Source: Streptomyces lienomycini (GTDB taxonomy: Bacteria > Actinomycetota > Actinomycetes > Streptomycetales > Streptomycetaceae). Taken from it: a DNA stretch of 64,000 bases. The notes beneath the pieces are model-generated. The model was not told where the DNA came from. It did not search any database and saw only the letters and a program-made list of their open reading frames with translations. Shown piece after piece: positions 56,156 to 62,792 of this stretch. The position numbers were made by a program, and so were the translations under genes. The stretch spans positions 4,402,001 through 4,466,000 of the forward strand of contig NZ_CP116257.1 in the NCBI RefSeq assembly GCF_027947595.1. The letters run 5' to 3'. Position 1 is the stretch's first letter. The number at the start of each line of letters is the position of its first letter.

Positions 56156-57454
56156 GTGCGTGTGTGTGTGATCGGTGCAGGCCTGTCGGGGCTGGCGGCG
56201 GCCCATGCCCTGAAGGAGCGCGGCATCTCCTTCGTCTGCCTGGAGAAGGCACCCGACGTCGGCGGGATCTGGCGTCAGCCGGGAGCCGGCGAGCAGGGCC
56301 CGGGCTACCAGACCCTGCACCTGAACACCGCCAAGCAGCTGACGGGTTACGCGGACTTCCCCATGCCGTCCTCGTACCCGCTCTACCCGCGGCACAGCCA
56401 GTTCGCCGCCTACCTGCGGTCCTTCGCCGAGTGGGCGGGTCTGCTCGGTCACGTCGAGCTGCGGACCGAGGTGGTGTCCGTCCGCCGGGACGCGGACGGC
56501 ATGTGGACCGTCGTCAGCCGGGGTGCGGACGGCGCCGAGACCTCGCGGCGGTTCGAGCAGGTGGTCGTCGCCTCGGGGCACCACACCGACCCCGCCCTGC
56601 CCGATCCCCTGCCGGCCGGCGCCGACTCCTTCACCGGAACGATTCTGCACTCCCTCGACTACCGCGACGGCGGCGACTTCGCCGGCCGGCGCGTGGTCGT
56701 GGTGGGCCTCGGCGCCTCCGCGGTGGACATCGCGGCGGACCTCTCCCGGCACGCGGAGCGGACCCTGCTGTCGGTGCGCCGGGGGCTGCACGTCGTACCC
56801 AAGCAGCTCTTCGGGATGTCGGTCGACGAGATCGCCGAGGCCCCCTGGTGGAACGAGATGTCCTTCGCCGAGCGGCGCCAGTGGGTGGAGCAGGCTCTGC
56901 TGGTGGCGCGCGGCAGGCTGTCGGACTACGGCCTGCCCGAGCCCGACCACCCGGTCTTCTCCTCCGCCACGACCCTCTCGGACGAGATCCTCAGCCGCAT
57001 CCGGCACGGCGCGGTGACCCCGAAGCCCGCGATCGCCTCGTTCGACGGCGACCGGGTCGTGTTCACGGACGGCAGTTCCGAGGCGGCCGACGCGGTCGTC
57101 TACTGCACCGGCTTCCGCATGACCTTCCCCTTCCTGCCCGCCGGCTGCCCCGTCTCGGCGGACGGCTCGGTCGAGCTGTACCGGCGGGTCGTGCCGGCGG
57201 ACCGGCCCGGTCTGTACTTCGTCGGGCTGGTGCGGCCCGTGGGCGCGATCACCCGGCTGGTGGAGGCCCAGGCGGAGTGGGTGGCGCGGATCATCGACGG
57301 CGCCGCCCCGCTGCCCCCGGCCGAGGAGATGCGCGAGGAGATCGGTACGTACCTCACCGGCATCGTCCAGCGCTACGGCCGGACCGAGGGCGCCTCGATC
57401 CAGGTCGACGTGGGCCCGTACCTGGCCGAGTTCCGGGAGGCGCTGCCCGTGTGA
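56156..57454 (+). CDS. Flavin-containing monooxygenase, possibly of prenylindole synthesis
   Basis: 432 residues. FAD motif [15 protein letters not shown] at the N-terminus, FMO identifying motif [11 protein letters not shown] near 163, NADPH motif [15 protein letters not shown] near 180. It oxygenates a soft nucleophile, usually N or S. In S. coelicolor an FMO next to a DMATS enzyme turns dimethylallyl-tryptophan into dimethylallylindole-3-acetonitrile; the gene here converges on a DMATS gene with a shared terminator between them, which fits the same chemistry. GTG start with GGGGGG nine bases upstream; 110 bases after paaK but probably its own unit. Confidence 0.85.
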
Positions 57455-57510
57455 CCGTCCCGCCGGGCGCCCCGCGCGGTCGGCGGCGGCACCCGGCCGC
57501 GTCCGCGCCC

Positions 57511-57541
57511 GGGGCTCCCGGTGGATCGCGCCGGGAGCCCC
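57511..57541. terminator. Bidirectional hairpin between FMO and DMATS genes
   Basis: Perfect 11-base stem GGGGCTCCCGG (57511-57521) with 57531-57541, loop nine bases, between two convergent genes. Confidence 0.8.
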
Positions 57542-57561
57542 GTCGTGTGCGCACGGTCCGG

Positions 57562-60855: not shown

Positions 60856-61207
60856 TGAGCACCTCCTCCAGGATCTCTCGGTCCGCGAGACGGGCGCGGG
60901 CCACCGGCGGGCGGGTCGTGAGGTGTCCGCCCTCCATCAGGGAGGCCAGCAGGATCCGCACCACGCCCAGCGGGAAATGGCTGTGTCCGGCGATCTCGGC
61001 GACCGAGAGGTAGCCGGCGGAGCAGAGGTCGAGCAGGCTCTGCTCCTCCGGGGAGAGCCGGGCGGGACGCCGTGTGTCCTCGGCCGACGCGGTGACCAGG
61101 GTGACGAGGGAGAGGTCGTCCTCGTCGGGCAGGCCGCGCCCCTTGGTGATGACGTACTGCCGGACTAATTCGGGCGCCTCGGGCTGCCAGCCGTCGTGGC
61201 CGGTCAT
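60830..61207 (-). CDS. cvnC: DUF742 protein CvnC
   Basis: 125 residues, DUF742 family: PELVRQYVITKGRG, SLDLCSAGYLSVAEIAGHSHFPLGVVRILLASLMEGGHL (a winged-helix-like part) and REILEEVLNGLRAKFG. It belongs to the conservon complex; the HTH-like part may bind a partner rather than DNA. ATG 61207 overlaps the cvnB stop (ATGA). Confidence 0.93.
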   Translation of the reverse strand: MTGHDGWQPEAPELVRQYVITKGRGLPDEDDLSLVTLVTASAEDTRRPARLSPEEQSLLDLCSAGYLSVAEIAGHSHFPLGVVRILLASLMEGGHLTTRPPVARARLADREILEEVLNGLRAKFG

Positions 61208-61605
61208 GAGTGGGCGCCGAGGTTCTCGCGCGGCGGTGTCGTCAGCCGCTTGCCGAGCTGGCCGACGAGCTGCTGCATCCGGAAGGTGATGTCGGCCATG
61301 TCGACCTCCGGGGAGGCGGACACGCCGAGGTAGGCACCCTCGCCGGCGGAGATCAGGAACACCCAGCCGCCGTCGAACTCGACGAGGGTCTGCCGCCACG
61401 TCTGGCTGGGGTCCTCACAGAAGAACGCGAGGGTGCGGCTGAGCGACTGCACGCCGCTCATGGCGGCGGCGACCCGGTCGGCGTCGTCCTTGCCGAAGTC
61501 CTGCGTCCGGGCCATCAACAGGCCGTCGGCGGATATCAGGACCGCGTGCAGGGCGCCTGGAATCTCCAGGGCGCTGTCGAGCATCCATGACAGATCGTCG
61601 TTCAC
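61204..61605 (-). CDS. cvnB: Roadblock/LC7 protein CvnB
   Basis: 133 residues of the roadblock fold (LSWMLDSALEIPGALHAVLISADGLLMARTQDF; AAAMSGVQSLSRTLAFF; GWVFLISAGEGAYLGVSASPEVDMADITFRM). In conservons it acts as the GTPase-regulating partner, like MglB. ATG overlaps the cvnA stop (ATGA). Confidence 0.94.
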   Translation of the reverse strand: MNDDLSWMLDSALEIPGALHAVLISADGLLMARTQDFGKDDADRVAAAMSGVQSLSRTLAFFCEDPSQTWRQTLVEFDGGWVFLISAGEGAYLGVSASPEVDMADITFRMQQLVGQLGKRLTTPPRENLGAHS

Positions 61606-62792
61606 GAGACCTCATGTCCTTCGCTGCTTGCACCAGGTGTTCTGCTCGTCCGGCCGGTGTTGTCCCCGGGCCCCTGCTCGGTGACCCGGCCGGACTGCGT
61701 TCCGCGCTGGAAGGCACCCATGACCTGTGCCTGCTCGGAGTCGGAGCGGCCCGCCGGGCGCGGGGTGGACGCGCTGCCGGGGACGATGGCCATCGGCCGC
61801 TTGCGGCGGCGCCGGGGCAGGCCGTCGCCGGTCTCGGAGGAGGAGGCGAGCGAGGCGGACTCCGGTCCGCCGGCGTCCTGGACCGGCCGGGCGGTGCCGC
61901 GGGCGGCCGGGGCGGGCGCCTTCTTCTCCGGCATGGCGGTGAGCAGTTCGTGCGGGAGCAGGACCACCGCCCGTACACCTCCGTAGGGGGAGGAGGAGTC
62001 CACCGACACCTCGAAGCCGAATCGCTCGCAGAGCAGGCCGATGACCGCGAAGCCGAACTGCGGCGGGTTGCCGAGCCCCGCCACTCCCGAGGCACGCTCG
62101 GTGGCGAGCAGCTTGTCGGCCCGGGTCCGCTCCTCGTCGCTCATGCCGACACCGGCGTCGTCGACGACGACGCAGATGCCCTTGGGCACGGTCCGGATGT
62201 TGATCTCGACGACGGTGTCCGGGCTGGAGTAGCTGGTGGCGTTGTCGAGCAGCTCGGCGAGGGCCAGGGCGACGGGCTCCACCGCCCGGCTGGTGATGCC
62301 GAAGTCGACCTGGGAGAGGATCTCCACCCGGCGGAAGTGCCGGACCCGGCCCTGGGCGCTGCGCACCACGTCGTACACCGAGGCGGTGTCGCGCCGCCCG
62401 CCCAGCCAGCCGTCGCACAGTACGGCGATGGACTGGGCCCGCCGGCCGAACTGCGAGTTGGTGTGGTCGATCTCCAGCAGGTCCTGGAGGAGGGCCGAGT
62501 CGCCGTACTTGTTCTGCAGCCGGGAGAGCACCAGTTGCTGTTCGGCGGCGAGGCCCTGAAGGGTCCGCATGGCGGATTTCAGCACCGTCTTGGTCTCGTC
62601 CTCGGCCCGCTCCTGGGCGGCCAGCACCGACTTCCCGTAATCGTTCTCCAGCTCGGTGTAGTGGTCCCTGAGCCCCTGGACCTGCTGTCGCAACGCTCGC
62701 GCCGCCCTGCGCTGGCGGCTGACGAGCACGGCGGCGGCGACGAGGGCGACAAGGGCGACCCAGAGCAAGGGGTTCCCTGTGTATTCCGTCAT
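61602..62792 (-). CDS. cvnA: Conservon sensor kinase-like protein CvnA, short form
   Basis: 396 residues: one N-terminal membrane helix (LLWVALVALVAAAVLVSRQ), a coiled-coil (RALRQQVQGLRDHYTELENDYGKSVLAAQERAED), a DHp-like segment and a GHKL ATPase domain with N box LAELLDNATSYSSP and G box DDAGVGMSDEE. It lacks an extracytoplasmic sensor domain, which larger CvnA proteins have. The C-terminal 130 residues are Pro/Ala/Ser-rich and likely unfolded. First gene of the five-gene conservon, all overlapping; it is the presumed signal-receiving anchor of the complex. Confidence 0.92.
   Translation of the reverse strand: MTEYTGNPLLWVALVALVAAAVLVSRQRRAARALRQQVQGLRDHYTELENDYGKSVLAAQERAEDETKTVLKSAMRTLQGLAAEQQLVLSRLQNKYGDSALLQDLLEIDHTNSQFGRRAQSIAVLCDGWLGGRRDTASVYDVVRSAQGRVRHFRRVEILSQVDFGITSRAVEPVALALAELLDNATSYSSPDTVVEINIRTVPKGICVVVDDAGVGMSDEERTRADKLLATERASGVAGLGNPPQFGFAVIGLLCERFGFEVSVDSSSPYGGVRAVVLLPHELLTAMPEKKAPAPAARGTARPVQDAGGPESASLASSSETGDGLPRRRRKRPMAIVPGSASTPRPAGRSDSEQAQVMGAFQRGTQSGRVTEQGPGDNTGRTSRTPGASSEGHEVS

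Follow-up and report, generated by a model that had tools for sequence, protein, structure and literature searches.

How did the gene for an indole prenyltransferase come to lie directly behind the cytochrome P450 gene of a conservon, and what controls it there? The question is raised by a locus in a 64,000-nucleotide (nt) stretch of the Streptomyces lienomycini genome (contig NZ_CP116257.1, positions 4,402,001 to 4,466,000; the whole stretch is called the window below), where a conservon (a G-protein system of actinobacteria) stands together with genes for a DMATS-family prenyltransferase and a flavin monooxygenase (FMO). Judged by its genes, the locus is a Type B prenyl-indole cluster on a P450-bearing conservon. 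The best reading of the comparisons set out here is that DMATS replaced a second P450 gene once, retaining its promoter and first codons, and that the codons of its PAPWGGY stretch became a hairpin. The genes of the locus are the following.

56156–57454, plus strand: FMO (PF00743, E 1e-81), converging on DMATS
57562–58689, minus strand: DMATS-family indole prenyltransferase, 375 aa (PF11991 above cut-off; TIGR03429, 159 bits)
58686–58793, minus strand: leader open reading frame (ORF) of 35 codons, with Shine-Dalgarno AAAAGGAGG and a TGA that overlaps the DMATS GTG
58897–60246, minus strand: CvnE-like P450 without ExxR (NCBIfam P450 matches below cut-off)
60262–60855, minus strand: CvnD-like small GTPase (PF03029, E 5e-29)
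60830–61207, minus strand: CvnC-like DUF742 protein (PF05331, E 6e-37)
61204–61605, minus strand: CvnB-like roadblock protein (PF03259, E 9e-23)
61602–62792, minus strand: CvnA-like histidine-kinase-like ATPase of the conservon core (PF02518, E 4e-9)

Profile matches confirmed the conservon gene set, with the histidine-kinase-like ATPase first, then roadblock, DUF742 and GTPase, all on the minus strand; the P450, the leader ORF and DMATS follow there, and FMO converges from the opposite strand. A first-pass annotation of this DNA, made from the letters alone, had given gene coordinates and ORFs that agree with the ORF list and the domain matches; its family assignments for the conservon genes, DMATS and FMO were upheld by the profiles, as was its coupled leader ORF. 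PF11991 and TIGR03429 were scored on a longer DMATS frame (57562–58839), on which the TIGR03429 score is slightly below the family cut-off of 163.85 bits, and the protein has 555 homologues with E ≤ 1e-10 among 8000 candidates scored. The P450-like protein had no Pfam match at E ≤ 0.001, and its NCBIfam P450 scores were all below cut-off. PMC3617294 (Ozaki et al. 2013), as far as its available text goes, divides such clusters into Type A, with a tryptophanase, and Type B, with an FMO; here DMATS, FMO and conservon occur together and no tryptophanase match was found within 6 kb. The predicted product of such a cluster would be a dimethylallylindole-3-acetonitrile prenylated at position 5 or 6. 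The FMO would be the counterpart of SCO7468, judged by gene content rather than by sequence comparison. The genome (7.86 Mb, one contig) holds a single PF11991 match and 12 DUF742 matches, and therefore about 12 conservons.

To place the locus among its relatives, we surveyed 392 genomes, evenly drawn from the genus of the window, and 80 named loci, the best of 124, which came from genome contigs, mostly of Streptomyces with some of Kitasatospora and Actinacidiphila; relatives in this survey are not independent, and loci were made distinct by their DMATS DNA. The DMATS search gave matches in 88 of the 392 genomes. It found 97 places, all but eight of which were taken as 20-kb regions; the eight were the place in the window itself, two second pieces of genes that included regions already contained, and five matches that were weak or short. 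At DMATS identities of at least 55% there were 115 distinct loci including the window, of which 106 had full flanks and nine without them were left out. A conservon core and P450 lie directly upstream of DMATS in 101 of the 106: 67 have a convergent FMO (Type B), 32 a same-strand tryptophanase match (Type A) and two neither. Two more (L037 and L038) have core and FMO and lack the P450, and the three other exceptions are L107 (GTPase not found), L133 (nothing found) and L139 (P450 and FMO, no core); a convergent FMO is present in 70 of the 106. Among more distant DMATS loci, a conservon lies upstream in one of ten at 40–55% identity (L162, 54.9%) and in none of 26 below 40%. Seen from the other side, relatives of the P450 in the 392 genomes, own genome excluded, adjoin DMATS in 28 of 28 cases at identities of at least 76% and in 50 of 58 at 66% or more. 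By these counts the arrangement is far beyond chance, and the first-pass concern that conservon and DMATS might be neighbours in this strain only is answered by the 101 loci that share the pairing.

The link between conservon, DMATS and FMO that the annotation had proposed is thus real as a pairing, but it was already in print: in its available text PMC3617294 describes a conservon in every IptA-like DMATS cluster (more than ten), some with a P450, and already speculates on an involvement of the conservon in signalling, so the core of the finding is not new.

Some of the surveyed loci show other arrangements. L166–L174 (46–49% identity) are without a conservon and have a tryptophanase match in eight of nine. 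In L175–L179 and L182, DMATS of about 30% identity is followed by a convergent P450-type conservon downstream (in L175 with an aminotransferase-like ORF in between, read from its sequence alone), possibly a second, separate DMATS–conservon pairing; these were not counted as support, because there are several conservons per genome. Among plasmids, the FMO has a single close match, in S. cadmiisoli (77%), on the contig of L043.

Conservation of the pairing may mean that conservon and cluster work together, or simply that DMATS entered a conservon once and stayed there with no functional link. The latter, which we consider improbable, would account for the single clade that DMATS-linked P450s form in the tree described below and for the loss of the P450 from L037 and L038, where leader and DMATS remain; cluster and conservon can also be separated, as in three FMO-only loci, one orphan DMATS and one core-less locus, which weighs against a functional tie. 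Yet the pairing, present in 101 of 106 loci, outlasted both deep divergence and the exchange of tryptophanase (Type A) for FMO (Type B), and P450 relatives of at least 76% identity adjoin DMATS without exception (28 of 28, own genome not counted). In the genomes of L038 and L037, a P450 about 74% identical lies far away (L238 and L240), with no conservon genes within the stretch around it. L236, L237 and L239 carry conservon, P450 and convergent FMO, have lost DMATS and have a GC-rich hairpin in the gap, in which neither IR3 nor the SigB-type motif, both described next, was found.

We then turned to the gap between P450 and DMATS and to the region upstream of FMO, which hold the following elements.

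58839–58864, minus strand: SigB-type promoter motif GCAT-N16-GGGTAG, upstream of leader and DMATS
56083–56108, plus strand: SigB-type promoter motif GTGT-N16-GGGCAG, upstream of FMO
58811–58839, minus strand: hairpin or dyad H1, GTGAGCAAC-N11-GTTGCTTAC, overlapping the end of the promoter motif
58767–58802, minus strand: hairpin H2, spanning the leader's start codon and bases of its Shine-Dalgarno
58721–58746, minus strand: hairpin IR3, GATACCCGCC-N6-GGCGGGTATC, terminator-like, within the leader ORF

Both promoter motifs combine GNNT with a GGGTA-like hexamer at a fixed spacing, as is typical of SigB-type promoters. In the available part of PMC8346170, S. coelicolor promoters of SigB homologues include GCATAA-N14-GGGTAT, whose spacing equals N16 when counted from GCAT, and another with the −10 hexamer GGGTAG. 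GCAT-N16-GGGTA is kept in 104 of 111 P450–DMATS gaps and the looser GNNT-N16-GGG[TC]A in 110 of 111 (controls: reversed 2, reverse complement 4), with other spacers from 10 to 22 reaching at most 23 of 111. Upstream of FMO the looser form occurs in 60 of 72 regions, as compared with one for the reversed and none for the reverse-complement sequence and no more than 6 of 72 for any other spacer; in most regions that hold it, its distance to the start is 51–54 nt. Before the conservon it is found in just three of 102 upstream regions, against four in the reversed control. Therefore, the two biosynthetic genes on opposite strands have in common a stress-sigma-type motif that is missing upstream of the conservon, and a SigB-class sigma factor may be used at both sites.

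These results bear on whether conservon and DMATS form a single operon, with the conservon as a platform or as a direct controller by co-expression. The genes share a strand, the gaps between them are short, and L113 and L116 look like a plain P450–DMATS operon in which the stop of the P450 and the start of DMATS overlap (ATGA, GTGA) and leader, motif and hairpin are all missing; read-through over the gap may occur in other loci. We nevertheless judge this arrangement unlikely, given a promoter motif of its own in 110 of 111 gaps, a terminator-like hairpin ahead of DMATS and the same kind of motif before FMO on the opposite strand (60 of 72). The single simple conservon–DMATS transcript of the first-pass annotation is disfavoured for the same reasons, the hairpin lying inside the ORF. 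DMATS probably has a promoter of its own, together with an attenuator-like control.

Such a control would lie in the leader. A leader ORF with a Shine-Dalgarno sequence precedes the structural gene, its translation being predicted: the Shine-Dalgarno and start-codon pattern is found in 110 of 113 gaps (not in L113, L116 and L145), a few perhaps by chance. IR3 or a close form is present in 98 of the 110 leader-bearing loci, and in all 98 the frame of the leader runs through it without a stop, as compared with 47 for the +1 and 81 for the +2 frame. Of these leaders, 86 stop within the RTGA at the start of DMATS and the other 12 are fused in frame to DMATS; with IR3-less loci included, 98 leaders of 31–87 codons stop in RTGA. 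As the ORFs run through IR3 in two frames (86 loci in one, 12 in the other), it is kept as nucleic acid, not as peptide. At ≤1 mismatch IR3 occurs in 43 of the 392 genomes, in all 43 at 11–128 nt upstream of a DMATS match, and the backwards control pattern occurs in none. The 8 nt after IR3 contain on average 4.0 T against a background of 1.28, and the flank before it 1.8 A against 1.44, so that the flank behind IR3 is T-rich, as for an intrinsic terminator.

Alternatively, IR3 could serve at the DNA level as an operator bound by a transcription factor, a reading that we hold to be doubtful. Its arms are nearly invariant (exact in 88 of 98 loci), and at ≤3 mismatches it has a single place in the window's genome, a result that excludes a genome-wide operator. 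The T-rich flank, by contrast, is one-sided (at least four T of 8 in 76 of 98 loci; at least four A on the opposite side in 1 of 98), and IR3 lies within an open leader frame behind the promoter motif. No second copy was found within the window and therefore none before FMO, which also counts against an operator; viral contigs held no exact copy.

Consensus folds, one per cluster type, gave H2 in both types and H1 in Type B only; H1 folds in the window and is absent from the Type A fold, and IR3 was also found. On 64 Type B sequences, 90.4% of the cells of H1 and H2 are paired, whereas slid controls reach at most 53.7%, and their covariation score of 0.132 compares with 0.107 for shuffles, none of 500 of which scored as high; both-side changes occur in five of the nine pairs of H1. 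Two other identities were tried and dropped: as a multi-copy operator, H1 has four other places in the genome at 2–3 mismatches (backwards control 1), and no Rfam family matched the window at its gathering score, with sub-threshold matches near the gap.

Could the leader act through its peptide, either as a precursor prenylated by DMATS or as a Trp-sensing leader peptide? Its Shine-Dalgarno is good, and the stretches MDHIST and IPAPxGGY recur. We regard this as very unlikely, however, for the hairpin is read in two frames, 12 leaders are fused to DMATS and there is no codon-position signal; the two hairpin frames and the absent signal disfavour a precursor peptide in particular. As to Trp, the 98 coupled leaders have no Trp codon in 81 cases, one in 16 and two in one, and a Trp attenuator was rejected.

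Several points weigh against attenuation at an RNA terminator, which we continue to prefer. The +2 frame, too, is open in 81 of 98 loci, so openness alone is weak evidence. The window's own IR3 tail, GCTCTGTG, has three T in 8 and is weak, and 12 of 55 DMATS places (identity at least 57%) are without IR3 at ≤1 mismatch; the twelfth of them is L133, whose locus shows no IR3 but is masked in the genome scan by a second copy on its contig. H2 shows both-side changes in two of 13 pairs, that is, little compensation, and H1, given the position of the motif, would be only partly transcribed. In leaders of 35 codons (n = 28) the third codon position is no more variable than the others, hence no sign of selection on the leader peptide. 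A consensus scan of 57300–59200 found no sigma-70 promoter and no terminator, and the main text of PMC8079986, an S. lividans survey based on transcription start sites that lists attenuators, does not mention SCO7467, DMATS or prenyltransferase.

Where did this leader come from? A clue is given by 22 DMATS-free loci (L241–L262), which have no DMATS match in the surrounding stretch; the conservon core was checked and found for L241 and L242 only. A related P450 is present in these loci, and in 16 of the 22 a second P450-type gene, recognised by a PWGG N-terminus and by its length, takes the position of DMATS. In L241 and L242 the second gene has Pfam p450 matches, ExxR and the standard heme motif. 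The SigB-type motif starts 30–31 nt behind the first P450 in 14 of the 16 tandem loci and 30–33 nt behind the P450 in 97 of 109 DMATS gaps. A profile built from 15 second-P450 N-termini was run against the leaders: 11 of 39 Type A leaders scored below 1e-5 (best 8.5e-19) and three more below 1e-2, the best reversed leader scoring 0.12 and the best other-frame translation 0.037. The region encoding PAPWGGY already forms stems of 4–10 pairs in real second P450s, not always identical ones. The leader is best read as the truncated start, or remnant, of the second P450 gene.

This origin agrees with a maximum-likelihood tree of 70 first P450s, 41 of them from DMATS loci (one search, midpoint root; 1 of 71 rows left out by the program, which also gave a long-branch warning). 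All 41 fall within one clade of 47 rows (support 100/99), which also contains FMO-only loci, two lone P450s and L255, and three tandem-P450 loci neighbour it (99/97). Type A is basal and paraphyletic, with Type B and FMO-only loci nested. The two most basal Type A branches have leaders with E-values of 7.7e-17, 2.2e-12, 0.0068 and 0.3, and of 2.8e-4, 0.092 and 0.14, respectively, while the less basal L050 and L121 give 1.8 and 2. A gene-replacement origin would explain both why DMATS lies exactly behind the P450 and where its odd leader came from. Against extending it to the window, no Type B leader matches the profile below 1e-2 and the window's own leader gives a non-significant E of 2.2; 36 of 69 Type B leaders do score below E 1 (reversed 1, other-frame 7), and for Type B it is position, the shared motif and the tree that suggest this origin.

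What, then, is the remaining P450? In the window's protein ExxR is missing, as the first-pass annotation had seen; the K-helix has DDTLW in its place, and the heme cysteine motif SAGPHACPSKEPA is kept. All 116 surveyed P450s have the heme Cys and LW and lack ExxR, and the I-helix acid–Thr pair is missing in 110. The available text of PMC3599690 describes CYP157 proteins as ExxR-less conservon P450s with x-L-W in place of ExxR; the window's P450 has x-L-W at this site, the heme Cys and a gene behind the conservon GTPase. In PMC13343842, as far as its text is available, CvnE and CvnF accessories accompany CvnA proteins without sensor domains and are proposed as their inputs or modulators, and Cvn8 represses an adjacent lanthipeptide cluster. 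The P450 fits this CYP157/CvnE accessory class rather than an enzyme working on the product. The annotation had suggested that it acts on or senses the product: sensing matches the accessory class (PMC13343842, in the part available), whereas acting is opposed by the absence of ExxR (116 of 116) and of the acid–Thr pair (110 of 116). By analogy, the P450 would be the sensory part and the conservon the regulator of its neighbour, possibly of the prenyl-indole product. Upstream of the conservon itself lies a perfect dyad, CGCGGTGATCGTATCACCGCG (62946–62966), whose GTGAT-N3-ATCAC is kept in 58 of 102 conservon upstream regions (reversed control 0) and which is a possible operator of the conservon.

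Starting from the observed gene content, its conservation, the motifs, the open leader frame and the tree, we infer that sigma factor use, attenuation, sensing and conservon control could be combined as follows. An ancestral conservon would have carried two tandem P450 genes, and DMATS would have taken the place of the second, keeping its promoter and its first codons as the leader ORF. DMATS and FMO would each be transcribed from a SigB-type promoter, that is, by a stress or development sigma factor, and not from the conservon promoter. Folding of the DMATS mRNA could hide the start site of the leader; translation of the leader would open IR3 and pass ribosomes on to the overlapping DMATS start, and without it transcription would end early at the terminator-like hairpin. 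Given this promoter and a leader that carries a terminator, DMATS output would seem to depend both on a SigB-class sigma factor and on translation of the leader. The ExxR-less P450 may assist the kinase-like protein as a sensor of a ligand or of heme, and the conservon, so equipped, would tune the adjoining cluster. Taken together, we regard the combination of replacement origin, SigB-type promoters, leader attenuation and conservon tuning as reasonably probable. A closed circuit, in which a captured stress-sigma promoter and a beheaded P450 start acting as attenuator are joined to a remaining P450 that detects the prenylated indole, or the precursor of it, and signals back by way of the conservon to the promoters of DMATS and FMO, is a much more speculative and rather improbable extension. 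The extremely low native expression reported in the accessible text of PMC3617294 counts against the scheme.

Around the locus, a hairpin of eleven pairs, GGGGCTCCCGG...CCGGGAGCCCC, lies between the convergent ends of DMATS and FMO (57511–57541) and is a likely bidirectional terminator. Phenylacetate catabolism genes (a PaaB domain and PaaK, 52781–56044) adjoin FMO; PaaK lies directly past FMO in 26 of 150 distinct loci, those being the closest relatives, and we rejected it as a cluster member and read it as neighbouring catabolism.

Among 5.39 million papers, with open-licence full texts covered, only PMC3617294 contains both 'conservon' and 'prenyltransferase'; its text, as available, has 'leader' and 'short peptide' 0 times each, and neither the hairpin nor the SigB-type motifs were found there. 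The pair of SigB-type motifs, the leader with an in-frame hairpin and the P450-replacement origin were all not found in the open-licence full texts, and what may be new accordingly lies in the P450–DMATS gap. Conservons are common in Streptomyces, yet little is known of what most of them sense or control. Here, one conservon lineage is tied to a two-enzyme pathway whose product is known in a laboratory strain, and the sequence pinpoints candidate control sites, namely two promoter motifs, a leader start codon and a hairpin. With exact control sites and a known product, what a P450-type conservon controls or senses therefore becomes directly testable.

The layout of the leader has a parallel in the pyrBI attenuator of E. 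coli, in which a leader ORF extends through the terminator to the structural gene; the likeness is limited to this layout, and control by UTP and pausing is not part of it. The actinobacterial ilvB leader, in which a short ORF and a candidate terminator hairpin followed by poly-U overlap (PMC1262725, in the part available), is alike in that a short ORF runs over a candidate terminator upstream of a biosynthetic gene; the window's leader, however, has no run of regulatory codons, such leaders overlap or fuse with DMATS, and it would derive from a P450 gene. With Cvn8 of S. coelicolor the locus shares a conservon with an accessory gene beside a biosynthetic cluster, which Cvn8 represses; there the accessory is a GAF protein (CvnF) and the neighbour a lanthipeptide cluster, here the accessory is a P450 of the CvnE type (PMC8510531 and PMC13343842, in their available parts). 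The P450 resembles the CYP157 family, as described in the accessible text of PMC3599690, in its x-L-W replacement and its linkage to an upstream conservon, a likeness of motif and position drawn to the family rather than to any named CYP157. A close counterpart in gene content is the Type B cluster of SCO7467 and SCO7468 in S. coelicolor and S. lividans, in which conservon, DMATS and FMO likewise occur together and whose two enzymes, according to the available text of PMC3617294, lead to 5-dimethylallylindole-3-acetonitrile.

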